DNA of 64,000 nt from an uncultured Carboxylicivirga sp. (GTDB lineage Bacteria; Bacteroidota; Bacteroidia; Bacteroidales; Marinilabiliaceae). Of this stretch, positions 5,310-61,533 are shown one piece after another (the stretch's first letter is position 1; each line of letters opens with the position of its first letter). Both the position numbers and the translations under genes were made by a program. The stretch covers positions 1,054,001 to 1,118,000 of the forward strand of contig NZ_OY764327.1 in NCBI RefSeq assembly GCF_963668385.1, given 5' to 3'. The notes under the pieces are model-generated. The model saw only the letters and a list, made by a program, of their open reading frames with translations, did not search any database and was not told the origin of the DNA.

Positions 5310-6284
5310 ATGATTACAATATCCGAGCTACAAAAAGTTGTTGAAGAAAGATTAATCAAAGAGGATTTTATTACAACCCCCAAGGGGTTGTATGAACCCA
5401 TTGAATATATAATGTCTTTAGGAGGCAAACGTATACGTCCTACGTTATGCTTAGCTGGTTGTTATTTATTTAACGACAACTACAAACAGGCTTTAACAAC
5501 CGGATTAGGACTGGAAGTTTTTCATAACTTCACATTACTACATGACGATGTTATGGACAATGCCGATGTTAGACGTAATAAACCAACAGTACATTGTAAA
5601 TGGGATGAAAATACGGCAATTTTGTCAGGAGATGCCATGATGATTAAGGCATATCAATACATTAGCAGAGTCGATCAAAATATATTAAAACCGATTCTGG
5701 ATTTATTTAATCAGACAGCTATTGAGGTTTGCGAAGGTCAACAATACGATATGGAATTCGAAACTCGTGACAATGTTACTATTGACGAATATCTTGAAAT
5801 GATTAGACTAAAAACAGCAGTATTACTTGCCGGAAGTCTTAAAGCAGGAGCAATAATTGGTATGGCCTCCGAAACGGATGCCATTAATCTATACGAATTC
5901 GGCCAAAACATAGGTTTAGCTTTTCAATTACAAGATGATTTTCTGGACGTTTATGGAGACGAAAAAACTTTTGGCAAAGCTATAGGAGGCGATATTATAG
6001 CAAATAAGAAAACCTTTTTATTAATTACCGCGTTAGAAAGGGCATCTGGAACTTTGGCAGATGAATTGCAAAAATGGATTAAAATCCCATCATTCAATCG
6101 CGAGGAAAAAATAAATGCTGTTACAGACATTTACTCAAAATTAGAAGTGGATAAAACAGCCCGAGATAAGATGGATGAGTACTTTCAGATGGCACTTTCA
6201 TCTCTTGAAAAAGTAAATGGCAGAGAAACAATGAAATCAGAATTACGCAATTTTGCAATAAAACTGATTGAAAGATCACGTTAG
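5310..6284 (+). CDS. Polyprenyl (trans-isoprenyl) diphosphate synthase
   Basis: A 324-residue protein with the family signatures: GGKRIRP for allylic substrate binding, the first aspartate-rich motif DDVMDNADVRR (about residues 78-88), and the second aspartate-rich motif FQLQDDFLDVYGD. It condenses isopentenyl diphosphate onto allylic diphosphates, making the chain for menaquinone or other isoprenoids. Chain length cannot be fixed from the sequence alone. It starts 14 bp after the transporter stop, which suggests co-transcription. The size is normal for the family. Confidence 0.9.
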   Translation: MITISELQKVVEERLIKEDFITTPKGLYEPIEYIMSLGGKRIRPTLCLAGCYLFNDNYKQALTTGLGLEVFHNFTLLHDDVMDNADVRRNKPTVHCKWDENTAILSGDAMMIKAYQYISRVDQNILKPILDLFNQTAIEVCEGQQYDMEFETRDNVTIDEYLEMIRLKTAVLLAGSLKAGAIIGMASETDAINLYEFGQNIGLAFQLQDDFLDVYGDEKTFGKAIGGDIIANKKTFLLITALERASGTLADELQKWIKIPSFNREEKINAVTDIYSKLEVDKTARDKMDEYFQMALSSLEKVNGRETMKSELRNFAIKLIERSR

Positions 6285-6289
6285 ATTAA

Positions 6290-7842
<1,553 letters not shown>

Positions 7843-51818: not shown

Positions 51819-51848
51819 GCCGATAGCACTTTAGTTATCGGCTTTTTT
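51819..51848 (+). terminator. Terminator of the DUF4395 gene, right arm shared with a gene fragment
   Basis: GCCGATA pairs with TATCGGC around a 10-base loop, followed by a T run. From 51837 onward the sequence is identical in kind to the interior of the secreted-protein genes at 56398 and 58786, so the right arm and T run come from that fragment. Confidence 0.8.
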
Positions 51849-52113
51849 CATTTTCACTTCAGGAGAACTGCTCAAGGTTTGCCCAAGAAACACAACAGGT
51901 TCGTAATTAATATGGCTTAAGGTAATAGTCGTTGATGCTAAAGTCGCCAAATGAATTGGTGATACTACCGCTTTTGCCATGCTGAAAACTTATTGTTGCA
52001 AACGATACAGCCTCACCTGTTTCAGCATCTACAATTCTGCCATTTATTTGAGCTGATACGTAATTTATTACAGAATGAAAAAGGATTACAATGAGTAGTT
52101 TATATTTATTCAT
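51837..52113 (-). pseudogene. Truncated and frameshifted copy of the CarboxypepD_reg-like secreted protein
   Basis: This keeps only the signal peptide and the start of the CarboxypepD_reg domain (INGRIVDAETGEAV, FGDFSIN) of the 384-residue proteins at 56398-57552 and 58786-59940. A 14-bp deletion at 51929/51930 shifts the frame, and homology stops at 51837 within the neighbouring terminator. It is the remnant of a further module. Its 5' flank carries the same 228-bp element as the intact copies. Confidence 0.88.
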
Positions 52114-52339
52114 GCGAATCAATAGTTCAAATTGTTTTATAGCAAAGTTCAACCCACTTTCGGGGTTGTATCATTAGTCAAATAGTCACCTCTCGCTCCG
52201 CACGAGGCTATTATTGTTAATGTCCTTCGGACATTTTCAAATCCTGAAAGGATTTAATTTGAATAGCCACGGGTGGAACCCGTGGAATAGGAACGTATCA
52301 TAAAGGAACCCAAAAGTGGGTTCAACTGTTGTTTCGCAT
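52112..52339. mobile_element. 228-bp TIR element, copy A
   Basis: The ends are inverted: ATGCGAATCAATAGTT on the left and the complement of ATGCGAAACAACAGTT on the right. Inside are several hairpins: AATGTCC-TTC-GGACATT, AAATCCT-GAA-AGGATTT and CCACGGGT-GGA-ACCCGTGG (approximate), with GGCTATT and AATAGCC able to enclose the first two. No ORF is inside, so it resembles a non-autonomous element. Copies B, C and a diverged inverted copy D are in this window. Confidence 0.65.
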
Positions 52340-52420
52340 CATTCACTTTAGTTTTGAGTTTAAATTTATGACAACAGTTTTTTTATGTTCTTATTCATTT
52401 TTTTTTGACTAAATAAATAG

Positions 52421-52530
52421 ACCCTCGCTAAGCGAAGTCTTAGACTTCGTTTGATTAAAGATGTAGTTTTTGACTACCATTACTAGTTTTGATTTCAATC
52501 TATGTTTTATGAACTACTTGTTGTAATCCG
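52421..52530. repeat. REP-like hairpin repeat R1
   Basis: Contains CGAAGTC-TTA-GACTTCG (52433-52449) and GTAGT-TTTTG-ACTAC, then about 60 bp conserved with R2 at 53245-53345 in the same orientation. R1 and R2 flank the toxin-antitoxin pair. Confidence 0.65.
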
Positions 52531-52640: not shown

Positions 52641-52940
52641 CTACTTTATCTTCAAATGTTCTGGTTTTTGTCTACAATCCCAAACCGTATGAATAATAAT
52701 AGCATCAGAAATAACTTCATAAAAAAGAATAAAATCCTCAACAATCAAACCTCTGACAGATTCAAAATCAGTCTTCATTCCTATCTCTGGATGAGTATCA
52801 ACTATTGATAATTCCTTCTTGAATCGGTTATAAAGTTTAGCTGAATATTTAGGACTTTTATTTCGTTTTGTGTAGTATTCTAAAATCTCAAAAAGTTTAA
52901 TATTTGCTTTATGGGACCAAATTATCTTGCGTTTAACCAT
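52641..52940 (-). CDS. RelE/ParE-family toxin
   Basis: A 99-residue basic protein with the RelE/ParE pattern: IIWSHKANIKLFEILEYY at the N-terminus, a PEIGMKTDFESVRGLIVEDF middle and a WDCRQKPEHLK end. Such toxins act on ribosome-bound mRNA or on gyrase. It overlaps the upstream antitoxin gene by 19 bp, which is typical of type II modules. The module is flanked by hairpin repeats R1 and R2. Confidence 0.85.
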   Translation of the reverse strand: MVKRKIIWSHKANIKLFEILEYYTKRNKSPKYSAKLYNRFKKELSIVDTHPEIGMKTDFESVRGLIVEDFILFYEVISDAIIIHTVWDCRQKPEHLKIK

Positions 52941-53158
52941 TTTTCAAATTCTATATCCATTTGCGTTTGGTCTATATAAAGTCCTTCAGATATTTGTTTT
53001 CTAGATTCTACTATTTCATTACGTTGTTGATTACTAAGATTCAACGTTTGTGACTGAGATTTTGAATCAAGAATTGTTTTTATAGCATTTAAAAATGCTT
53101 CATCATCAATCTCTTCAATTCTATGTATTAATAGCTTTTTTAATTCTATTGCTTTCAT
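52922..53158 (-). CDS. Antitoxin of the RelE/ParE-type pair
   Basis: A 78-residue protein with a helical N-terminal half (ELKKLLIHRIEEIDDEAFLNAIKTIL) and a C-terminal toxin-binding-like segment ending EKWLNAR. No classic DNA-binding fold can be assigned from sequence. Its gene precedes and overlaps the toxin gene, and a -7 box lies 20 bp upstream. Confidence 0.8.
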   Translation of the reverse strand: MKAIELKKLLIHRIEEIDDEAFLNAIKTILDSKSQSQTLNLSNQQRNEIVESRKQISEGLYIDQTQMDIEFEKWLNAR

Positions 53159-53244: not shown

Positions 53245-53345
53245 CTCCCTCTAGTTAAGCAAAGTCTTTGACTTTGTTCGATTAAAGAAGTCTTTTACTA
53301 CCATTACTAGTTTTGATTCCAGTCTTTATTCTATGAACTATCTTT
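53245..53345. repeat. REP-like hairpin repeat R2
   Basis: The stem is CAAAGTC-TTT-GACTTTG (53260-53276), a compensated version of the R1 stem CGAAGTC-TTA-GACTTCG. The following stretch through ACTACCATTACTAGTTTTGA is nearly the same as in R1. It lies upstream of the toxin-antitoxin promoter. Confidence 0.65.
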
Positions 53346-53372
53346 TGCAATACCACATGTTTTGTCCTTCAA

Positions 53373-54601
53373 TTAGTCAAAGATTGGTTCCTCCAACAAT
53401 CGAACAATACGCTTAGAACCATCTTCACCTTTGAAAGTGACTTCAATTGTATCATTAGATAAATCAGTATTTCGATATCTACAATAAGACTCATAATTCA
53501 AAAGAGAGATTTCATTAATTGCTATAACCTGTGTTTTAAGTTTAAAATTGGCTTTAGAAGCAGCAGTATTCTCAACAAGAGCACCTATCTCTGCGACACT
53601 TTTGTCTTTATTATAAATAAGGGAAAATCCTTTAGTTTTCCCTATAAAACCAGAATTAGGGTGAACTGGCTCCAAAATGAGTTTTTTGTCAGGCCAATTG
53701 ATGGTTGTTTTGTAGTTTTCAAAAAAGCCCAACCCTAAAAGATTTAAACTTTTGGAAGCTGTACAGACTGTCACATCACTTACAGCAAAATCCGAGTTAT
53801 TAAAGAATAAACTATCAGTCTTATAATATCGATATGTAATTACCGAGTCTTCTTCGCCCAAACCTTTACTTGCCTGCCCAAGTATCCCTTTACTTAGGTA
53901 TTTAATAGAATCGTTTAACACATCCCTTTCACTCAAAAACAGAGTACTGTTACTTCCCAAGTCAACCAAGACACTCTTTAATGGCCTATTTTCACCGAAC
54001 CTAACTTTAGTTCTTAAATGATGACTTTTTTTATTTTCATTTAGTGGAATCTCAAAATAATTACTCCCAAACTCCAAATCATCTGGCCTCTTAGCGACAA
54101 TAATTTGTTGTCTTTCAAAATCTATCTGCCAAACAAAATGGTGCATGACGCCGATTCCTATAATACCACAAATATTCTCTTGACATTCGCCATCAAATAC
54201 AATTTCTTTAGCATTTAAATTATCAAAAGCTATTTTCCCAAATTGAATACTTTTTATATTTTTTATATGACCTAAGAACCAGTTCTCGGCGGCTCCTTGA
54301 GAAAGAGAAACCCATTATTTTCAAAACTCATTTCTTCTGAAAATCTCTTGAAAACTATATTAGATGCACCACTATCAAGTATAAATAAACTAAAGGATTT
54401 ACCCTCATTAACCTTTACATCTATAAGAATATGCCCTGAGCAACTATATCTAAAAGGGATAGTATCCGTAACAAATTCAGAACTTAACACTCCCTGATTT
54501 AATTTTTTAAAAGACCTTGATATACTATATAAAAAATAGGCAGCTCCTACAAAGGTTAATAAAATTACAACGCTAGTAAGAATCAATACTTTTTTTATCA
54601 T
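53373..54601 (-). pseudogene. Retropepsin-like aspartyl protease with PDZ-like end, frameshifted
   Basis: Two adjacent frames join into one protein of about 408 residues. The first part (54601 to about 54290) has a signal anchor and the catalytic FILDSGASNIVF motif; the second resumes with ENWFLGHIKNIKSIQFG and carries a second VLVDLGSNSTLFLS site and a PDZ-like GFSLIYNKD region to 53373. The frames meet at an AAGGAG site near 54295, where one additional G restores FLFLKGAAENW. It is a recent mutation or a sequencing error. It lies downstream of the GG-leader peptides, where a protease could be involved in processing (inference). Confidence 0.75.
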
Positions 54602-54633
54602 TAATTATATTAAATTTATCATTTGGATGGAAC

Positions 54634-55038
54634 CTAAGGCTTGTGCACAACTCTATATTGAATAACATATCTAAAGATCAAATAAGTTATAACCCCACTT
54701 ACTATGGCAGAGACCATATCCAAAGGGTCAAAAACTCCATGGAACCCGAAATAGCCTAGAAATTCATATAGTATAAAAAACACAACTCCTTGAATAATTA
54801 TTTTGGATAGACCTACTTGCTTTTTTTCTATTCCAAGACGATAACATGTATAGGTAGGTATCCCTATTATGCTACCAAGAGTGTCAGCTATATGAAAATC
54901 ATTTAAATGGTTGCTATATATAAATTTTCGATAAGTATAATTCAAAACTATGCCGGCAAGAAATAAAATTATAGCCGCAATAAAATAACCTACATGAGTA
55001 ATAAATTTCGTTTTAGTTACTTCTTTTAATTCCTTCAT
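54634..55038 (-). CDS. Small polytopic membrane protein
   Basis: A 134-residue protein with about four hydrophobic segments (about 14-33, 45-60, 79-97, 103-125). FDPLDMVSAIVSGVITYLIF faintly resembles VanZ-like proteins, but not enough to assign. It lies 78 bp after a GG-leader peptide gene and 32 bp before the protease gene, occupying the position that the small candidate immunity proteins have in the other two modules. That parallel is inferred from position only. Confidence 0.6.
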   Translation of the reverse strand: MKELKEVTKTKFITHVGYFIAAIILFLAGIVLNYTYRKFIYSNHLNDFHIADTLGSIIGIPTYTCYRLGIEKKQVGLSKIIIQGVVFFILYEFLGYFGFHGVFDPLDMVSAIVSGVITYLIFRYVIQYRVVHKP

Positions 55039-55116
55039 ATCAATTCGAATTAATTACTTTAAAGGAGAAACAAACGACGCTTATCCTTTTATAAAATACT
55101 ATGGCATAGAGTTTTG

Positions 55117-55275
55117 TCATGCTTCTGCAGCTTCTGGGCTCATATCAGTAATCCATGACAGTGCATAACCAAGTGCGACCCAAATTTTTCTTCTCCCTCC
55201 ATCAATATTAACAAGATCAGAGTTTGATAACTCTATCAAATGTGTATTTTCTAATTCTAAATTAAACTTTTCCAT
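55117..55275 (-). CDS. GG-leader peptide (52 residues), module 3
   Basis: The leader MEKFNLELENTHLIELSNSD continues to VNIDGG, a double-glycine site, followed by a 25-residue core RRKIWVALGYALSWITDM and an acidic end. The Met at 55275 fits the leader; an upstream in-frame Met adds an unlike basic stretch. This is the second peptide of the damaged module. It is too short for a safe family call; a bacteriocin-like role is inferred from the cluster. Confidence 0.65.
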   Translation of the reverse strand: MEKFNLELENTHLIELSNSDLVNIDGGRRKIWVALGYALSWITDMSPEAAEA

Positions 55276-55304
55276 TTTATTCTTGAATTTAAATTTTAAT
55301 ATAA

Positions 55305-55471
55305 TCAACTTCTGGCTTTATCCCATCCATACATAAAATCCTCCGCACAACCTTCCGGATCATTTAAAAAATCCCATGCCAAACCACCTAATACCCACCA
55401 TATAATACCTCCCTCTATCATCTTCAATTCCAGGGCATCCATCTCCTGAACAATCCATTTAAATTTTTCAT
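55305..55471 (-). pseudogene. Disrupted GG-leader peptide of the MKNL family
   Basis: The start at 55471 gives MKNLNG, as in the intact genes, but a net 4-base loss before codon 8 shifts the frame and it stops after 15 codons. The shifted frame continues VQEMDALELKMIEGG and then a core IIWWVLGGLAWDFLNDPEGC. An internal ATG at 55442 could still give a 45-residue peptide with a shortened leader. The upstream DNA is conserved with the gene at 56278. Confidence 0.7.
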
Positions 55472-55473
55472 TT

Positions 55474-55510
55474 CACAAAATTTTAAGTTATTAAAAAAGT
55501 TAATTTTGTG
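55474..55510. promoter_or_regulatory. Inverted repeat before the disrupted precursor gene
   Basis: CACAAAATT at 55474-55482 and AATTTTGTG at 55502-55510 are perfect complements, 19 bp apart, directly upstream of the start codon. The same arrangement lies before the gene at 56278. Confidence 0.5.
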
Positions 55511-55729
55511 CCGGCTGTGGCCAGCACCCCGATGGACAACATGTAAGTCTTCATCATAAAAACCACAATAAAAAGCTATTCCCTTGGTGTGTATAGTTTC
55601 GTGTAACAATACAATACTTAAGTAGAAATTCTTGCAATTATTCTCGTTAAAAAGATACTTGGCTTTGCGCCTATATGGTCCCTGAGCCTAGTTGTTAGTT
55701 CTTATTGATTTAATAGCTACTTTGCAAAC

Positions 55730-55894
55730 TATTTTTTTGTAGAAGACTGTTTTTTTACAACCAAAAACAATCCTATGGATGATGAACATAGCAGTAATCC
55801 AAGCGGTATCATACTACTATTCGATTTAAAAACACCAAATAAGACAGTGATAAAACCTAAAAAACCCAAACCAAATATTAGTATATCTTTCATT
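55730..55894 (-). CDS. Two-helix small membrane protein, candidate immunity protein (module B)
   Basis: A 54-residue protein: MKDILIFGLGFLGFITVLFG, a short loop, then a second helix (MIPLGLLLCSSSIGLFLVV) and a basic end KKQSSTKK. It starts 14 bp after the stop of the GG peptide at 55909. It shares pattern (FLGFxTVxxGxF, IPxGLLL) with the 52-residue protein at 60404-60562. Small two-helix proteins encoded just after a bacteriocin gene are often immunity proteins; here that is inference. Confidence 0.6.
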
Positions 55895-55908
55895 ATTAGG
55901 TGATTTTA

Positions 55909-56076
55909 CTAATTAGTCAGATATCCGATTGCATAACCTGTGTAGTATGCGGTTGCAATAACAAATCCTCCTGCTGCAAATACAAGACCGGCTATAGCCA
56001 AGGGGCCTCCTCCGTTAGTATCTTTTTGTTCCTCTTTTGTCAATAACTGTAAGTTTTGTATTTCAATCTTTTTCAT
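55909..56076 (-). CDS. GG-leader peptide (55 residues), second peptide of module B
   Basis: The leader MKKIEIQNLQLLTKEEQKD leads to TNGG, and the core of about 32 residues is hydrophobic and glycine-rich (AIAGLVFAAGGFVIATAYY) ending with GYAIGY, a GxxxG-type motif. The Met at 56076 is chosen because an upstream in-frame extension overlaps the preceding gene. It lies 19 bp after the MKNL-family peptide, giving a pair. The double-glycine leader suggests export by a C39-type ABC transporter, which is not in this window. Confidence 0.72.
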   Translation of the reverse strand: MKKIEIQNLQLLTKEEQKDTNGGGPLAIAGLVFAAGGFVIATAYYTGYAIGYLTN

Positions 56077-56095
56077 TTTACAAGAATTTAGATTA

Positions 56096-56278
56096 TTATT
56101 TATTTGCATCTTCTTTACCTGCATTATATCCTGACATAAATCCTCCATATATTGCCAGTCCAACGACTCCAATTGCTGCATAGTTATATGCGATCATGCC
56201 AAATATAATTCCTCCATCGGTTTTTTGCAATTCTTTAGCATCCATCTCCTGAACACCTAAATCATTTAAATTTTTCAT
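56096..56278 (-). CDS. GG-leader peptide (60 residues), MKNL family, module B
   Basis: The leader MKNLNDLGVQEMDAKELQ leads to KTDGG; the core is a 37-residue glycine-rich hydrophobic stretch (IIFGMIAYNYAAIGVVGLAI) ending GYNAGKEDANK. The leader is nearly identical to that at 58532-58684 while the cores differ. The start at 56278 has GTGAG upstream. It lies 119 bp after the secreted-protein gene and is the first peptide of the module. Confidence 0.75.
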   Translation of the reverse strand: MKNLNDLGVQEMDAKELQKTDGGIIFGMIAYNYAAIGVVGLAIYGGFMSGYNAGKEDANK

Positions 56279-56280
56279 CT

Positions 56281-56317
56281 CACAAAATTTTAAATTATTA
56301 AAAAAGTTAATTTTGTG
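56281..56317. promoter_or_regulatory. Inverted repeat before the module B precursor
   Basis: CACAAAATT at 56281-56289 and AATTTTGTG at 56309-56317 have the same sequence and spacing as the pair at 55474-55510. Confidence 0.5.
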
Positions 56318-56397
56318 CCGGCTATAACATTGATATCCCAAGCCTAAGGATTCGCACAGGAGCTGCGGAGATATATAAGTTTGAGCACTTTGTATAT

Positions 56398-57552
56398 TTA
56401 CAAATTATCTATCATTGTTTGTTCTTTATCTGTTAATGGCATCACATTTCCATACCTCCAGAACTCATTATTATATGAATTACCATATTTCCATAATGCC
56501 TTTTGGGAGTAATTATTTTTTCCTTTCAACTGGTCGTCGCCAACATGGCAATTAACTATGATGCAATCACTCCTGAACGCGAGCATTTTATTAATTTTAT
56601 TATTCCATATTTTCATATCCAGTGTTATTGAAGAATATAGTGGATAGTACCCTTCTTCTCCCATCTGATACTTGACGGTAATTGCTTTATCGCAAAGTTG
56701 CCCTTTAAAAACTATGGCGTTTTTAATTTCCTGATAATGGATTAAGCTTGGTTCTAATTGTAATGTTGCTTCTTGAACCAGATTAGATTCTTTATCAATA
56801 ATTATATAGCCAGAGTATAAGGATTGCTGCGCAGCTTCTTTGGGTTTAAACCCAATACGTAATTGTTCTGCTTGGTTTGCCCCCTTGTAGTTTTTGATTT
56901 CAAAAGAGTAGCTTTCGCTGTTTTGTATCACAGCATTTAGAAAATCAAGCCTGGCAATAGAAAAAACAGTTCGAACGTCCAATGGTGAAATAATATCAAA
57001 GGCATCTTCTTGCTCTTTTGATTTTACACGAGCTTGTTCGATATGGGCTTGTATTTTTTTTGCTTTATCATTCCAGTCATTTAAATGAAAAGTAAGGATT
57101 CCATCAGCAAACTTTGTAGTCTGCATATCTTCGTAAACAAATTCTCGATAATAGCCTTGAGCAGATAAAGGCTGAATTAAAGCGAGCTTTGAATCTTGAA
57201 TTGATTTTTGTGCTATCTGTGGCAAAGATTTCACCGATACCACAACTTCTTCAATGGTGTAATCGGCTTTTTTCATTTTCACTTCAGGAGAACTGCTCAG
57301 GGTTTGCCCAAGAAACACAACAGGTTCGTAATTAATATGGCTTAAGGTAATAGTATCAGATGGCACTGCGTTGATGCTAAAGTCGCCAAATGAATTGCTG
57401 ATACTACCGCTTTTGCCATGCTGAAAACTTATTGTTGCGAACGCTACAGCCTCACCTGTTTCAGCATCTACAATTCTGCCATTTATTTGAGCTGATACGC
57501 AATTTATTACAGAATGAAAAAGGATTACAATGAGTAGTTTATATTTATTCAT
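56398..57552 (-). CDS. Secreted CarboxypepD_reg-like protein, module B
   Basis: A 384-residue protein. A signal peptide (MNKYKLLIVILFHSVINCVS) is followed by a CarboxypepD_reg domain (INGRIVDAETGEAVAFATI, residues about 22-95) with no TonB plug, then about 280 residues of unknown fold. The frame opens 13 codons earlier, but the Met at 57552 starts the signal peptide and the earlier part lies in the inverted-repeat end of the 228-bp element. It is the first gene of module B and nearly identical to module C, differing in one residue (Cys/Tyr at 18). Its function is unknown; a surface or carrier role for the peptides is possible. Confidence 0.8.
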   Translation of the reverse strand: MNKYKLLIVILFHSVINCVSAQINGRIVDAETGEAVAFATISFQHGKSGSISNSFGDFSINAVPSDTITLSHINYEPVVFLGQTLSSSPEVKMKKADYTIEEVVVSVKSLPQIAQKSIQDSKLALIQPLSAQGYYREFVYEDMQTTKFADGILTFHLNDWNDKAKKIQAHIEQARVKSKEQEDAFDIISPLDVRTVFSIARLDFLNAVIQNSESYSFEIKNYKGANQAEQLRIGFKPKEAAQQSLYSGYIIIDKESNLVQEATLQLEPSLIHYQEIKNAIVFKGQLCDKAITVKYQMGEEGYYPLYSSITLDMKIWNNKINKMLAFRSDCIIVNCHVGDDQLKGKNNYSQKALWKYGNSYNNEFWRYGNVMPLTDKEQTMIDNL

Positions 57553-57778
57553 GCGAATTAATAGTTCAAATTGTTTTATAGCAAAGTTCAACCCACCTTC
57601 GGGGTTGTATCATTAGTCAAATAGTCACCTCGCGCTCCGCACATGGCTATTATTGTTAATGTCCTTCGGACATTTTCAAATCCTGAAAGGATTTAATATG
57701 AATAGCCACGGGTGGAACCCGTGGAATAGGAACGTATCATAAAGGAACCCAAAAGTGTGTTCAACCGTTGATTCGCAT
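57551..57778. mobile_element. 228-bp TIR element, copy B
   Basis: It has inverted ends beginning ATGCGAA and the same internal hairpins as copy A. TATTC lies directly on both sides, a possible 5-bp target duplication. One end sits exactly at the start codon of the secreted-protein gene. Confidence 0.65.
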
Positions 57779-57895
57779 TATTCACTTTAGCTTTGAGTTT
57801 AAATTTATGACAACATTTTTTTTATGCCCATTTGATTTTTTATTCCAAGGTATTGAAAGCGCAATAGTACCTCCTCCCATACAGCCATATTACCA

Positions 57896-57990
57896 CTCTC
57901 ACTAAGGGAAGTCTGCGACTTCGTTTTTGATATAGCAAGTAGTTTAAAACTACATTTTCGGTTCGACGTAATTGCAAATTACGCCGAACC
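57896..57990. repeat. REP-like hairpin repeat R3
   Basis: Three successive hairpins: GAAGTC-TGC-GACTTC (57908-57922), GTAGTTT-A-AAACTAC (57939-57953) and a 31-bp stem-loop 57960-57990 with stems GGTTCGACGTAATT and AATTACGCCGAACC. Confidence 0.65.
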
Positions 57991-58010
57991 CCATATTCAG
58001 CTGAGCTGGG

Positions 58011-58217
58011 TGGAATGTACTTGCAAGGTTGTCCATCGGGGTATTTATTATACCGAGAGATAATTTTAATGATTAAAAAAAGCGTAGCGTATTTGAATCA
58101 TATAAAATCACAATTCGGTATTGTAACGTTACATTTGCAATATTATAGTTTGCCTGTCTCATTTTTTGAGATTGCACCCAGTCAACAATACAATTAAACT
58201 TCTAAGTTTAATAAATC
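58011..58217. other. Spacer between repeat copy B and the 39-residue peptide gene
   Basis: This stretch has no supported gene. A plus-strand open frame of 60 codons is present but has no recognised features. Confidence 0.4.
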
Positions 58218-58337
58218 CTATTGTGATAGCTCGATAACATCTTGTTTCCTATCCTTTCTTCCATCACTAAACCCCCATAACATCAACAAAAACATAACTA
58301 TCATAAAGAATAGTCTAAGCAATCTTTTATTGTCCAT
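58218..58337 (-). CDS. Single-helix small membrane protein, candidate immunity protein (module C)
   Basis: A 39-residue protein MDNKRLLRLFFMIVMFLLML followed by WGFSDGRKDRKQDVIELSQ, giving one membrane helix and a charged tail. It starts 10 bp after the stop of the GG peptide at 58348. An upstream in-frame extension is not favoured because it would overlap that gene. Its position equals that of the two-helix protein in module B. Confidence 0.5.
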   Translation of the reverse strand: MDNKRLLRLFFMIVMFLLMLWGFSDGRKDRKQDVIELSQ

Positions 58338-58347
58338 TTGCAAAATT

Positions 58348-58521
58348 TTAGTTATAATATCCGACCGTATAACCAACACACCAAGCCAAATGAGAAGCTG
58401 GTCCACCTAGCATTGAAATGTAAAATCCACCTCTTTTCCACGAAGCGAATTCCCCACCATTCAGATATAATAGTTCGTTTGAACAAACTTCTTCTAATCC
58501 TAATAAATTTAACTGTTCCAT
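58348..58521 (-). CDS. GG-leader peptide (57 residues), second peptide of module C
   Basis: The leader MEQLNLLGLEEVCSNELLYL leads to NGG and the core is EFASWKRGGFYISMLGGPAS ending GYTVGYYN, a glycine-rich hydrophobic sequence. It is 10 bp after the MKNL-family gene at 58532. The leader differs from the MKNL type. The core contains one Cys, so a disulphide is not expected within it. Confidence 0.72.
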   Translation of the reverse strand: MEQLNLLGLEEVCSNELLYLNGGEFASWKRGGFYISMLGGPASHLAWCVGYTVGYYN

Positions 58522-58531
58522 AACTACAATA

Positions 58532-58684
58532 TTATTTGTTTCTATCTTCTTGCCCTGCGCTAAATCCAGCAGCTAGCATTAATCCAAGCCATAAAGTTGC
58601 GGCTTCTATAAGAAATCCCCCGTCAGTTTTTTGCAATTCTTTAGCATCCATCTCCTGAACACCTAAATCAATTAAATTCTTCAT
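58532..58684 (-). CDS. GG-leader peptide (50 residues), MKNL family, module C
   Basis: The leader MKNLIDLGVQEMDAKEL runs to KTDGG and matches the module B leader at all but one or two positions. The core is FLIEAATLWLGLMLAAGFSAG with a charged end QEDRNK. Leader conservation with core divergence is typical of precursor families. It lies 101 bp after the secreted-protein gene of module C. Confidence 0.75.
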   Translation of the reverse strand: MKNLIDLGVQEMDAKELQKTDGGFLIEAATLWLGLMLAAGFSAGQEDRNK

Positions 58685-58785
58685 TTCACATAACTTTAAG
58701 TTTATAAAATAATTCATTGTATTCCCTAAGCGGAAGGATTCGCACAGGAGCTGCGGAGATATATAAGTTTGAGCACTTTGTATAT

Positions 58786-59940
58786 TTACAAATTATCTAT
58801 CATTGTTTGTTCTTTATCTGTTAATGGCATCACATTTCCATACCTCCAGAACTCATTATTATATGAATTACCATATTTCCATAATGCCTTTTGGGAGTAA
58901 TTATTTTTTCCTTTCAACTGGTCGTCGCCAACATGGCAATTAACTATGATGCAATCACTCCTGAACGCGAGCATTTTATTAATTTTATTATTCCATATTT
59001 TCATATCCAGTGTTATTGAAGAATATAGTGGATAGTACCCTTCTTCTCCCATCTGATACTTGACGGTAATTGCTTTATCGCAAAGTTGCCCTTTAAAAAC
59101 TATGGCGTTTTTAATTTCCTGATAATGGATTAAGCTTGGTTCTAATTGTAATGTTGCTTCTTGAACCAGATTAGATTCTTTATCAATAATTATATAGCCA
59201 GAGTATAAGGATTGCTGCGCAGCTTCTTTGGGTTTAAACCCAATACGTAATTGTTCTGCTTGGTTTGCCCCCTTGTAGTTTTTGATTTCAAAAGAGTAGC
59301 TTTCGCTGTTTTGTATCACAGCATTTAGAAAATCAAGCCTGGCAATAGAAAAAACAGTTCGAACGTCCAATGGTGAAATAATATCAAAGGCATCTTCTTG
59401 CTCTTTTGATTTTACACGAGCTTGTTCGATATGGGCTTGTATTTTTTTTGCTTTATCATTCCAGTCATTTAAATGAAAAGTAAGGATTCCATCAGCAAAC
59501 TTTGTAGTCTGCATATCTTCGTAAACAAATTCTCGATAATAGCCTTGAGCAGATAAAGGCTGAATTAAAGCGAGCTTTGAATCTTGAATTGATTTTTGTG
59601 CTATCTGTGGCAAAGATTTCACCGATACCACAACTTCTTCAATGGTGTAATCGGCTTTTTTCATTTTCACTTCAGGAGAACTGCTCAGGGTTTGCCCAAG
59701 AAACACAACAGGTTCGTAATTAATATGGCTTAAGGTAATAGTATCAGATGGCACTGCGTTGATGCTAAAGTCGCCAAATGAATTGCTGATACTACCGCTT
59801 TTGCCATGCTGAAAACTTATTGTTGCGAACGCTACAGCCTCACCTGTTTCAGCATCTACAATTCTGCCATTTATTTGAGCTGATACGTAATTTATTACAG
59901 AATGAAAAAGGATTACAATGAGTAGTTTATATTTATTCAT
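58786..59940 (-). CDS. Secreted CarboxypepD_reg-like protein, module C
   Basis: Same 384-residue architecture as the gene at 56398: signal peptide (Tyr18 here), CarboxypepD_reg domain (about 22-95) and an unknown C-terminal domain ending TDKEQTMIDNL. The preferred start at 59940 is at the edge of the 228-bp element. It heads module C. The near-perfect identity to module B indicates recent duplication or gene conversion. Confidence 0.8.
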   Translation of the reverse strand: MNKYKLLIVILFHSVINYVSAQINGRIVDAETGEAVAFATISFQHGKSGSISNSFGDFSINAVPSDTITLSHINYEPVVFLGQTLSSSPEVKMKKADYTIEEVVVSVKSLPQIAQKSIQDSKLALIQPLSAQGYYREFVYEDMQTTKFADGILTFHLNDWNDKAKKIQAHIEQARVKSKEQEDAFDIISPLDVRTVFSIARLDFLNAVIQNSESYSFEIKNYKGANQAEQLRIGFKPKEAAQQSLYSGYIIIDKESNLVQEATLQLEPSLIHYQEIKNAIVFKGQLCDKAITVKYQMGEEGYYPLYSSITLDMKIWNNKINKMLAFRSDCIIVNCHVGDDQLKGKNNYSQKALWKYGNSYNNEFWRYGNVMPLTDKEQTMIDNL

Positions 59941-60166
59941 GCGAATCAATAGTTCAAATTGTTTTATAGCAAAGTTCAACCCACTTTCGGGGTTGTATCA
60001 TTAGTCAAATAGTCACCTCTCGCTCCGCACGAGGCTATTATTGTTAATGTCCTTCGGACATTTTCAAATCCTGAAAGGATTTAATTTGAATAGCCACGGG
60101 TGGAACCCGTGGAATAGGAACGTATCATAAAGAAACCCCAAAGTGGGTTCAACTGTTGTTTCGCAT
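59939..60166. mobile_element. 228-bp TIR element, copy C
   Basis: Same length and ends as copies A and B. The flanks are TATTC on one side and CATTC on the other, a one-base-imperfect 5-bp duplication. Confidence 0.65.
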
Positions 60167-60285
60167 CATTCACTTTAGTTTTGAGTTTAAATTTATGACA
60201 ACAGTTTTTTTATGCCCATTTGATTTTTTATTCCAAGGTATTGAAAGCGCAATAGTACCTCCTCCCATACAGCCATATTATCACT

Positions 60286-60377
60286 CTCACTAAGTGAAGT
60301 CTGCGACTTCGTTTTTGATATAGCAAGTAGTTTAAAACTACATTTTCGGTTCGACGAAGTTGCAAACTTCGCCGAGC
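60286..60377. repeat. REP-like hairpin repeat R4
   Basis: Same three hairpins as R3, but the third stem is CGACGAAGTT with AACTTCGCCG instead of CGACGTAATT with AATTACGCCG. Both arms changed together, so pairing is kept. Confidence 0.65.
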
Positions 60378-60403
60378 CCCATATTCAGCTGAGCTGGGCC
60401 CCA

Positions 60404-60562
60404 TCATTTCTCTTTTTTAGACTCCCCTATTACCAACATCGACATTGCTATAACAATTAATAATAAACCAGGAATGATGGGTTGGTGAGTTTTCGAGAAA
60501 AAGATTCCTGAAATAACTGTAAGAAAACCCAAGAACGATAATATAAATACGATTATTTTCAT
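60404..60562 (-). CDS. Two-helix small membrane protein (52 residues)
   Basis: MKIIVFILSFLGFLTVISGI forms the first helix and IIPGLLLIVIAMSMLVIG the second, with a basic end ESKKEK. It resembles the 54-residue protein at 55730-55894 in pattern. No GG-leader peptide lies between it and the next upstream gene, so it may be an orphan immunity-like protein. Its stop is 6 bp from the repeat copy C boundary. Confidence 0.6.
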   Translation of the reverse strand: MKIIVFILSFLGFLTVISGIFFSKTHQPIIPGLLLIVIAMSMLVIGESKKEK

Positions 60563-60616
60563 AGTTGAGTGTTTTTATACCTTCTCAAAAGGACATATAT
60601 GATAACGTACAGGTAA

Positions 60617-60781
60617 TTATTTTTTTTCTTTTTTCAGTGTTAAGCCAATAATTAAAACACATAGCCCAGAAACAAATAAGCTTCCATACCCCCATACGGT
60701 AGCCAATTCAATTTTAAATAGAAAACAAAAAGTACTCACTAAAATTAAAATTACACCTAAAATGGTTACACTTCTTTTCAT
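60617..60781 (-). CDS. Two-helix small membrane protein (54 residues)
   Basis: MKRSVTILGVILILVSTFCF and GSLFVSGLCVLIIGLTL are the two helices, with KKEKK at the end. The Met at 60781 is chosen over an earlier in-frame Met that would add a long hydrophilic stretch. It lies 54 bp upstream of the 52-residue protein on the same strand, so they may be co-transcribed. Confidence 0.6.
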   Translation of the reverse strand: MKRSVTILGVILILVSTFCFLFKIELATVWGYGSLFVSGLCVLIIGLTLKKEKK

Positions 60782-60888: not shown

Positions 60889-61533
60889 TTACCTGTCAAC
60901 AATAATGCGCAGGCTTTTATACTGGTTTAATAATTCGGGATGGGTAATACCAATCATTTCCATTATTAAATCCAGCTTGCCTTTTAGCAGATCGTCGGCT
61001 TGGTCCATTAAGGCTTCTAATTGTTCGCCGGCACCTTTGCGTTCTACAATGGCACTGCGCACATTGGTTTGTTTAGACGCAAAAACATCTAACGCGCTTT
61101 GTATTTCTGCCAGTTTTTCGTCTGATAAATTATATACTTCACCTTTGGCTAAGGTTTCTTGTGCATGGCCAATTACCTTCTGTGCACGTGCAATGGTGGT
61201 TTGCTCAGTTACCTGTTTTAACTGTGTTACGGTAAAATCTACATCGTTTAGCAGCACTACATCATTATTAAATGAGGCATGTAGTTTTAAAATGCTAATA
61301 AGGTCGAGGGTAAGTTTAACCAGTAGCTCCCGGGCTTCTTTTTTGCTTTGGGTTTGGCTGGTCGACTTTAGTTCGGTTGTCTCATTCTGTTTGCCAATCT
61401 CAGTTAACAAATTTTCAAATTCAGCCAAGGTATCGGCAAAGCCGGGTATGGCACTAAATTTCTCAAGAATGGTTTTCACCCATTCTAACACCACTTTGTA
61501 CATTTTAAAGTGTTGGTTTTGACGTTTATCCAT
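60889..61533 (-). CDS. Hypothetical helical protein (214 residues)
   Basis: A charged helical protein with no signal peptide or membrane segment. It contains a Ser/Thr/Gln-rich linker near residues 55-70 and several amphipathic helices (LLVKLTLDLISILKLHASF, QSALDVFASK). No domain is recognised. A plus-strand frame of 243 codons overlaps it but has a composition typical of an antisense shadow. It lies beside the 21-bp-period array. Confidence 0.7.
   Translation of the reverse strand: MDKRQNQHFKMYKVVLEWVKTILEKFSAIPGFADTLAEFENLLTEIGKQNETTELKSTSQTQSKKEARELLVKLTLDLISILKLHASFNNDVVLLNDVDFTVTQLKQVTEQTTIARAQKVIGHAQETLAKGEVYNLSDEKLAEIQSALDVFASKQTNVRSAIVERKGAGEQLEALMDQADDLLKGKLDLIMEMIGITHPELLNQYKSLRIIVDR

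Follow-up and report, generated by a model that had tools for sequence, protein, structure and literature searches.

Few small antibacterial peptides are known from Bacteroidota, and PMC10352776 describes this scarcity for Bacteroidales. Here we describe a minus-strand locus of paired small peptides with double-glycine (GG) leaders in a 64-kb stretch, hereafter the window, of the 6.27 Mb genome of an uncultured Carboxylicivirga species; window and genome were studied by gene reading and sequence comparison. The closest described counterparts are class IIb bacteriocins, bacteroidetocins and the Cdz system of Caulobacter. Class IIb bacteriocins, for which a profile exists (TIGR03949, lactobin A/cerein 7B), share with the locus an adjacent pair of GG-leader peptides, hydrophobic cores with GxxxG motifs and an immunity-like gene behind the pair, and a C39 exporter is present in the related cluster of Carboxylicivirga linearis. 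In the immunity-like slot, a small hydrophobic protein stands behind each pair of the window, and one of these proteins, TM_B, occurs together with its peptide B2 in another locus, L095 (L and G numbers denote loci and genomes). Unlike class IIb systems, the locus has a Gram-negative Bacteroidota host, no exporter of its own and a CarboxypepD_reg gene in front of the peptides. As the class IIb label already exists, the general kind of system is little new and its details are moderately new.

Bacteroidetocins, in the account of PMC6671954, likewise come from Bacteroidota and have a GG leader and, in producers, a C39 exporter, but are there given leaders of 15-16 amino acids (aa), at least two cysteines, in most cases a neighbouring gene for a thiol oxidoreductase, and no evident immunity protein. 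The window peptides are paired, their intact leaders have 23-27 residues and their cores at most one cysteine each; leader length and cysteine count rule out a bacteroidetocin assignment. Cdz, as presented in PMC5380434, also has a pair of small leader-bearing proteins with glycine motifs, relies on type I secretion and includes a small immunity protein in the membrane; long glycine zippers and contact dependence set it apart. The window cores, known here from their genes, have short GxxxG motifs instead, and a Cdz assignment was rejected because extended glycine zippers are absent from them. Titles and abstract starts in the open PMC literature, which mostly leaves out subscription papers, yielded nothing on two-peptide systems with CarboxypepD_reg genes in Bacteroidota and nothing on regulators with a C-terminal GG leader.

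Two intact peptide sets and the remnant of an exporter cluster

The locus probably carries the payloads of two-peptide (class IIb-like) bacteriocins at a site that is partly decayed and lacks an exporter; from its genes we infer export, killing, immunity, the role of the CarboxypepD_reg gene and present-day activity. An earlier note on this DNA had listed two minus-strand sets, each consisting of a CarboxypepD_reg gene (the head), two GG peptides and a small membrane protein, and open reading frames (ORFs) confirm this order and the coordinates. The genes of these sets (A and B) and of a third group (C) are as follows, with their basis in brackets.

58786-59940, minus strand: head A, CarboxypepD_reg protein with an N-terminal hydrophobic (signal-like) stretch, 384 aa from ATG (ORF; Pfam PF13715)
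58532-58684, minus strand: peptide A1, leader end DGG, GFSAG in core (ORF, TIGR03949 genome match, leader profile)
58348-58521, minus strand: peptide A2, leader end NGG, GYTVG in core (ORF, leader profile)
58218-58337, minus strand: TM_A, hydrophobic, 39 aa, putative immunity protein (ORF)
56398-57552, minus strand: head B, one codon different from head A (ORF, copy alignment)
56096-56278, minus strand: peptide B1, leader end DGG, GFMSG and GYNAG in core (TIGR03949, 31.7 bits)
55909-56076, minus strand: peptide B2, leader end NGG, GYAIG in core (ORF, TIGR03949 genome match, comparison with L095)
55729-55893, minus strand: TM_B, hydrophobic, 54 aa, putative immunity protein, accompanies B2 in L095 (synonymous and non-synonymous differences)
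55305-55442, minus strand: peptide C1, broken leader frame, end EGG, intact in C. linearis (ORF, comparison with C. linearis)
55117-55275, minus strand: peptide C2, leader end DGG (ORF, comparison with C. linearis)
54634-55038, minus strand: TM_C, hydrophobic, 134 aa, with relatives behind GG pairs in L096 and L142 (comparison with relatives)
53373-54601, minus strand: aspartyl protease-like gene in two ORFs (53373-54146 and 54272-54601), intact in C. linearis with 409 aa

The label 'membrane' for the small proteins is hydrophobicity read by eye, and all Pfam and NCBIfam matches of TM_A (scanned as a 62-aa ORF) were far under cut-off. ORFs were called from the first ATG, GTG or TTG, which leads to spurious N-terminal extensions on some peptides. 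The leader ends DGG and NGG of the earlier note hold for five of the six peptides, the sixth, C1, ending in EGG. The cores do differ between sets: A1 and B1 are 84% identical over 113 bp in the leader region, and their cores are unlike.

The note had taken the third set (54634-55471) for a damaged copy of the same module. The damage is real, as the leader frame of C1 is broken, but there is no trace of a head, and the set is instead what is left of another kind of cluster, one with an exporter, which C. linearis retains intact. The homologous site there (L089, genome G001) carries HlyD, a C39 ABC exporter, a winged-helix regulator, C1 and C2, a 134-aa hydrophobic protein and a 409-aa aspartyl protease (PF13650, 29 bits, cut-off 24.3), flanked by a DUF4395 protein that is 80% identical on one side and by the counterpart of window protein 60889-61533, 98% identical, on the other. 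Window 53249-55536 and L089 5633-7925 are 99.3% identical, and similarity begins again at window 60836 (L089 11862). Because of this same-site match we take the third set to be the end of the exporter-bearing cluster. Short pieces aside, the match ends ahead of C1, and HlyD, the C39 exporter and the regulator lie between the two matched parts of L089. This exporter half is gone from the window site, where units A and B occupy its place; both the C1 leader and the protease, which is split in two ORFs in the window, are intact in C. linearis.

Together, these data suggest a model in which the site formerly held a cluster of the C. linearis type, with HlyD, C39 ABC exporter, winged-helix regulator, peptide pair, hydrophobic protein and aspartyl protease. 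HlyD, the exporter and most of the regulator would have been lost, and two payload sets would have come in instead, each behind a near-identical CarboxypepD_reg unit. As the payloads differ and the head coding sequence is the same, payload exchange with recent homogenisation of the heads would fit. A C39 exporter would recognise each intact leader and cleave it C-terminally to the double glycine. The mature cores of a pair would then associate via GxxxG helices in the target-cell membrane, with the producer protected by the hydrophobic protein encoded behind them. The locus thus offers an evolutionary snapshot: one chromosomal site with and without an exporter, and identical heads with different payloads.

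The earlier note's statement that the window holds no exporter was correct, and a C39 ABC exporter for which it had proposed a search does exist elsewhere in the genome, together with HlyD (G000:C1:113.7 kb). It lies ~1.0 Mb from the locus, is 49% identical to the C. linearis exporter and has at most 52% identity to the 109 exporter ORFs compared (duplicates kept). Next to it, at L028:7938-8078, is a 46-aa peptide with a GG site and a leader unlike those of the cassettes. A stand-alone C39-like peptidase without an ABC part was also seen, at G000:C1:4941568 (L030:9212-9937), between proteins of 430 aa and 453 aa.

Profile matches, leaders and glycine motifs

In the protein scan with TIGR03949 (cut-off 21.5), B1 passed with 31.7 bits and B2 nearly did with 21.1; A1 (16.5), C2 (16.4) and C1 (15.8) stayed under the cut-off and A2 had no match. 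Across the whole genome, the profile gave five matches at E<=10, all in this locus (B1, B2, C1, A1, C2), with B1 passing at 32.5 and B2 just passing at 21.9. The neighbouring Pfam family of class IIc bacteriocins, Bacteriocin_IIc (PF10439, cut-off 27.1), was ruled out as an assignment, as none of the six peptides passes (B1 19.8, the best score; C2 11.6; no match for the others). The profile search that the earlier note had proposed for its six peptides thus came out positive for B1, borderline for B2 and below cut-off for the rest on TIGR03949, and negative on PF10439.

A leader profile also gave five matches in the whole genome, all in this locus, at E<=0.001 as well as at E<=0.01. The confinement of both sets of matches to one locus of the 6.27 Mb exceeds chance. 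The peptides stand in adjacent pairs (A1/A2, B1/B2 and, with the leader frame of C1 broken, C1/C2). According to PMC6363468, C39 domains read Leu-12, Glu-8, Leu-7 and Val-4 of the leader, and the leader positions of the GG peptides fit the recognition described there.

GxxxG-type motifs are present in the cores of A1, A2, B1 and B2, with a maximum of two overlapping motifs in B1. To place these in context, among 117 non-redundant paired cores from the window and its relatives, the G-x3-G spacing was seen 118 times against 52.8 expected, a count reached by 0 of 300 shuffles, which ignore common descent. Control spacings 2, 3 and 5-8 gave counts of 30-57 against 45-56 expected: spacings 2, 3, 5, 6 and 7 were near or below expectation, and spacing 8 was somewhat high (57 versus 45.3, 7 of 300 shuffles). 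Both members of a pair have GxxxG in 36 of 71 pairs, one member in 24 and neither in 11.

Related clusters in Bacteroidota

The leader profile had matches in 18 of the 393 genomes searched at order level, 20 of 395 at phylum level and 15 of 60 from close relatives, sets that overlap and include the genome itself. A search with the C. linearis exporter supplied the exporter-anchored loci, the 80 best of 135, from genomes partly the same as in the leader-profile sets. GG groups numbered 149 (3 in the window and 146 elsewhere, from 105 sources), groups counting as duplicates only where the last 25 residues of their peptides were identical; they were called with the leader profile, which was built from 14 leaders (4 from the window) and favours look-alikes. 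G227:C58 (a 1339-aa frame) and G722:C14 (453 aa) were left out of the survey, and L051-L056 and L086-L088 were not annotated apart.

The 80 exporter-anchored loci contain a GG peptide in 63 cases, an adjacent pair in 41, HlyD in 77, a CAAX/Rce1-type protein in 28, a regulator in 41 and, within 700 bp of a GG peptide, a CarboxypepD_reg gene (150-700 aa) in 7. CAAX-type proteins are known to confer immunity to class II bacteriocins. The gene behind the GG group was of CAAX/Rce1 type in 32 of the 149 groups, HlyD in 15, CarboxypepD_reg in 11, TM_C-like in 3 (one of them that of C. linearis), and a C39 exporter and an aspartyl protease in 1 each; 81 groups were followed by an unlabelled ORF and 5 by none. 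Rce1/CAAX-type genes within 300 bp of the 149 groups lay downstream 29 times, upstream 4 times and on the opposite strand 0 times. In L145, the gene behind the peptides encodes a DUF3267 zincin-like protein (Pfam). By eye, a family of ~410 aa recurs near or behind GG peptides (L045:2758-4062, L122, L142, L144:7462-8697, L146, L176); its L045 member has an HEEGH motif, and the L045 and L144 members have no Pfam match.

Within the genus, L095 (G013, another genus member) matches the window over 338 bp at 92.6% identity, a stretch that takes in most of B2 and the whole of TM_B; the neighbouring genes in L095 differ. The proportion of synonymous differences (pS) was 0.173 for the B2 core and 0.160 for TM_B, against non-synonymous proportions (pN) of 0.051 and 0.016; both together have 11 synonymous and 6 non-synonymous changes (Fisher p 3e-4). 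Peptide B2 and TM_B are thus common to both loci as a unit that is, or formerly was, constrained.

Overall, this suggests paired-peptide systems with varied immunity-slot genes in several Bacteroidota lineages. An antibacterial GG-peptide system, as the earlier note had proposed by analogy, remains the best reading of the gene content: pairs, C39-type leaders, the GxxxG excess and CAAX-type proteins recur in relatives, and the activity stays an inference as it was there.

An inserted CarboxypepD_reg unit

Head A matches Pfam CarbopepD_reg_2 (PF13715) with 44 bits (cut-off 32.2). The earlier note had placed the CarboxypepD_reg gene at the head of the module. As a natural module head it was ruled out, being an insert in the regulator-peptide spacer: in set B, ~1.67 kb that include the head separate the peptide leader from the regulator remnant and its spacer. 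Read against L089, unit B adjoins the spacer 3' of the regulator gene on one side and, on the other, the GCCGGCACAAAATT stretch that precedes the start of the peptide. Elsewhere, CarboxypepD_reg genes within 700 bp of a GG group follow it 11 times and precede it 6 times (8 with the two of the window), genes between two groups being counted in both directions. The repeat units and the features around them are as follows.

58725-60397, minus strand: repeat unit A, head and upstream repeats, approximate ends
56337-58009, minus strand: repeat unit B, inserted ahead of the B1 leader region, approximate ends
59975-60169, strand not assigned: dispersed repeat with inverted ends, 5' of each head copy, limits by eye
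51834-52406, minus strand: head gene fragment with upstream repeat, third copy
60404-60562, minus strand: small hydrophobic protein, possibly a TM_B relative
60617-60781, minus strand: small hydrophobic protein

Units A and B differ at 5 of 1255 positions (58725-59979), with one codon different in the coding sequence, and at 20 of 418 positions in their upstream parts (1 of 1155 coding versus 20 of 418 upstream, Fisher 3e-11). As there is no synonymous change between the heads, recent homogenisation is a likelier cause than selection. The truncated extra head gene of the earlier note is real: 51834-52113 is 95% identical over residues 1-75 and 84% over residues 75-112. The 416 bp upstream of head A have at least 36 matches in the genome, a lower bound because 40 of 64 candidates were scored; 20 of these cover a ~180-bp stretch with inverted ends (59975-60169), 3 locally and 17 elsewhere in the genome. 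By eye, this dispersed repeat resembles a miniature inverted-repeat transposable element. Genome copies of the repeat-unit end CATATTCAGCTGAGCTGGG (up to two mismatches) were confined to the two unit ends, so that no dispersed recombination site was found.

The contig search returned no relative of the head, and at 1e-20 it was found in its own genome only, among 149 genomes; other searches gave one weak plasmid match and weak matches to SusC/TonB-type PDB chains. SusC/TonB-type and FecR-linked CarboxypepD_reg proteins have the N-terminal domain in common with the head. Within this genome, the head has a paralogue (G000:C1:2588383) with 26% identity across head residues 25-388; the paralogue has an extra N-terminal part and adjoins a FecR-like gene (named by eye), whereas the head sits among GG peptides. 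The AlphaFold2 model of the head, with a mean predicted local distance difference test score (pLDDT) of 45, was too poor to use.

Alternative explanations

Several observations weigh against reading the locus as a site of two-peptide bacteriocins. Neither a C39 exporter nor an adaptor is present at the locus or elsewhere in the window, although both are at the same site in C. linearis, and because the lone C39 ABC exporter of the genome is divergent, export of the A and B peptides stays putative. Among the four Carboxylicivirga DUF4395 neighbourhoods read, L089 alone has GG peptides, none having been called in L090, L092 and L093. Only B1 passes TIGR03949 in the protein scan, B2 being added narrowly by the genome scan; the C1 and C2 cores are without GxxxG; and in 54 non-redundant unpaired cores, spacing 4 (40 versus 31.2, 19 of 300 shuffles) does not stand above spacings 2, 5, 7 and 8. 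The locus may even be dead, its peptides unsecreted and selection acting, if at all, to retain the hydrophobic proteins as orphan immunity against neighbours, which we judge to be only slightly on the improbable side. The loss of exporter, HlyD and regulator at the site fits this, as do the broken C1 leader and protease, the head fragment at 51.8 kb and the two extra small hydrophobic proteins at 60404 and 60617, but sets A and B are intact ORFs, the genome has a C39 exporter elsewhere, and B2 and TM_B are constrained relative to L095, even if this constraint may predate the loss. That the peptides are signals (pheromones) controlling expression rather than toxins seems very unlikely: C39 exporters serve quorum-signal peptides too, according to PMC6363468, and a regulator is present in 41 of 80 exporter loci, whereas the adjacent pairs, the GxxxG excess, the median core length of 32-33 residues and the CAAX-type and zincin-like proteins behind peptides speak against it, and no histidine kinase was noticed, though no search was aimed at one. 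A contact-dependent glycine-zipper system like Cdz, with peptides aggregating on the producer surface, is unlikely as well; its two small glycine-zipper proteins, type I secretion and small membrane immunity protein (as given in PMC5380434) speak in favour, but the window cores reach at most two overlapping GxxxG motifs and have no long zippers. Bacteriocin payloads at a partly decayed site remain our preferred account of the locus.

The CarboxypepD_reg protein most likely works in the periplasm or outer membrane, either in an accessory role or in immunity. Genes of this kind (150-700 aa) number 18 in the 571 kb within 2 kb of GG peptides versus 15 in 1515 kb farther away (binomial p 0.0012; window left out, genes deduplicated, bases not), and 10 of the 11 that follow a GG group do so with a gap of 33-233 bp. 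This supports a real link with GG peptides, leaning to the slot behind them, less so than for Rce1-type proteins. More specifically, the protein might be a periplasmic or outer-membrane immunity protein that shields the target, and not a gene merely carried along; we regard this as possible but doubtful. Besides the enrichment and the position behind peptides, the CarboxypepD_reg protein of L144 stands at the position of the CAAX-type protein of L169, and there is a precedent in BamP, described in PMC12611786 as a periplasmic BamA-binding protein that keeps darobactin off BamA, which PMC8546649 names as the target of bacteroidetocins. The head itself has a weak N-terminal match to BamP (NF053692, 18.3 bits), but the cut-off is 230, which rules out membership, and as SusC is matched better (34 bits), the match is probably only the shared domain. 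Furthermore, the window head precedes the peptides, as do six CarboxypepD_reg genes elsewhere, practically one protein would serve two different payloads, and the structure model gives no help.

Spacer element, candidate operator and regulator tail

Of a regulator such as that of C. linearis, the window keeps remnants and a candidate operator only:

58121-58174, minus strand: regulator gene end and spacer, remnant (90.7% to L089 7957-8010)
58122-58133, strand not assigned: palindrome TGTAACGTTACA, candidate operator
55544-55616, minus strand: regulator gene middle, remnant ahead of C1 (77% to L111 6253-6327, within the L111 regulator 6088-6423)

Exact matches to the 12-bp palindrome TGTAACGTTACA number six in the 351 kb of the window and 21 loci: the five from relatives precede a first peptide by ~98-113 bp, and the sixth, in the window, lies ahead of unit B. 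An alignment of the spacer ahead of the first peptide in 14 Carboxylicivirga and family sequences, chosen from 28 for looking alike, gives three helices. In this element 6 of 21 pairs are changed on both sides, versus 2.0 in shuffles (0 of 500 as high), over which relatedness favours it, and at most 3 in slid versions, over which it is favoured because the helices were derived from the same alignment. Three-helix spacers were noted in L057, L089, L091, L094-L097, L099, L101 and L102. Window set B has its helices interrupted by the insert, and in set A they cannot be made out. Rfam at the gathering threshold gave no match in the window, L089, L094, L057 or L095.

Regulators were called by blastp at 1e-4 to three regulators. 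A GG with 8-40 residues behind it, forming a C39-leader-like tail, was noted among those of L043, L044, L057, L058, L060, L061, L063, L082, L089-L108 and L109-L188, and was found in 54 of 63 distinct cluster regulators (101 loci gave 52 distinct regulators, 48 with GG in the last 40 residues and 47 under the strict count; further sources added 11, 7 with the tail). Of the nine without it, three have AG there (L099, L045, L068), one ends in GG (L067) and five have neither (L091, L141, L159, L162, L028); three of these five are shorter than 80 aa, and the group includes the regulator adjoining the genome's own exporter. In the first regulator set, the tail was present in 13 of 15 clusters at 50% identity versus 60 of 937 like-size unlabelled ORFs, a weak control because many unlabelled ORFs will not be genes. 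Seven regulators were scanned with HTH_11: L111, L110 and L114 were above cut-off, L137 and L109 just below, and L112:8066 and L145 without match. PADLOC found nothing in the seven window proteins scanned and a weak WYL match in the L111 regulator.

In 45 non-identical tails, residues L, I, V, M or F occupy positions -4, -7, -12 and -15 in 96, 53, 91 and 73%, versus 73, 76, 97 and 92% of 194 GG peptides, and Glu is at -8 in 69% of the tails and 90% of the peptides; positions -13, -17 and -19 of the tails are hydrophobic in 51, 56 and 71%. Since just 7 of 48 regulators reach 8 bits with the leader profile (0 of 48 with shuffled tails), the likeness of tail and leader rests more on positions than on sequence. 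An alignment of 23 tailed regulators has one Thr of the helix-turn-helix and the two Gly as its invariant columns. In a model of the C. linearis regulator (mean pLDDT 81), the winged helix is confident up to about residue 70 and does not include the tail; residues 82-88, directly ahead of the GG, form a helix of moderate confidence (block mean 67), and the helix behind the GG has low confidence.

We tentatively suggest that the exporter may act as a transcription sensor, its C39 domain binding and perhaps cutting the regulator at the C-terminal GG and thereby reporting free exporter, although we think this somewhat improbable. With similar reserve, a cut might release the DNA-binding part or the tail of 11-32 residues. 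If true, export capacity would be linked directly to transcription, and the regulator tail of the relatives is the part most deserving further attention.

Beside the locus, window 52641-53158 holds a ParE-type toxin gene preceded by a small partner gene, between two 63-bp repeats, 83% alike, at 52465 and 53289.

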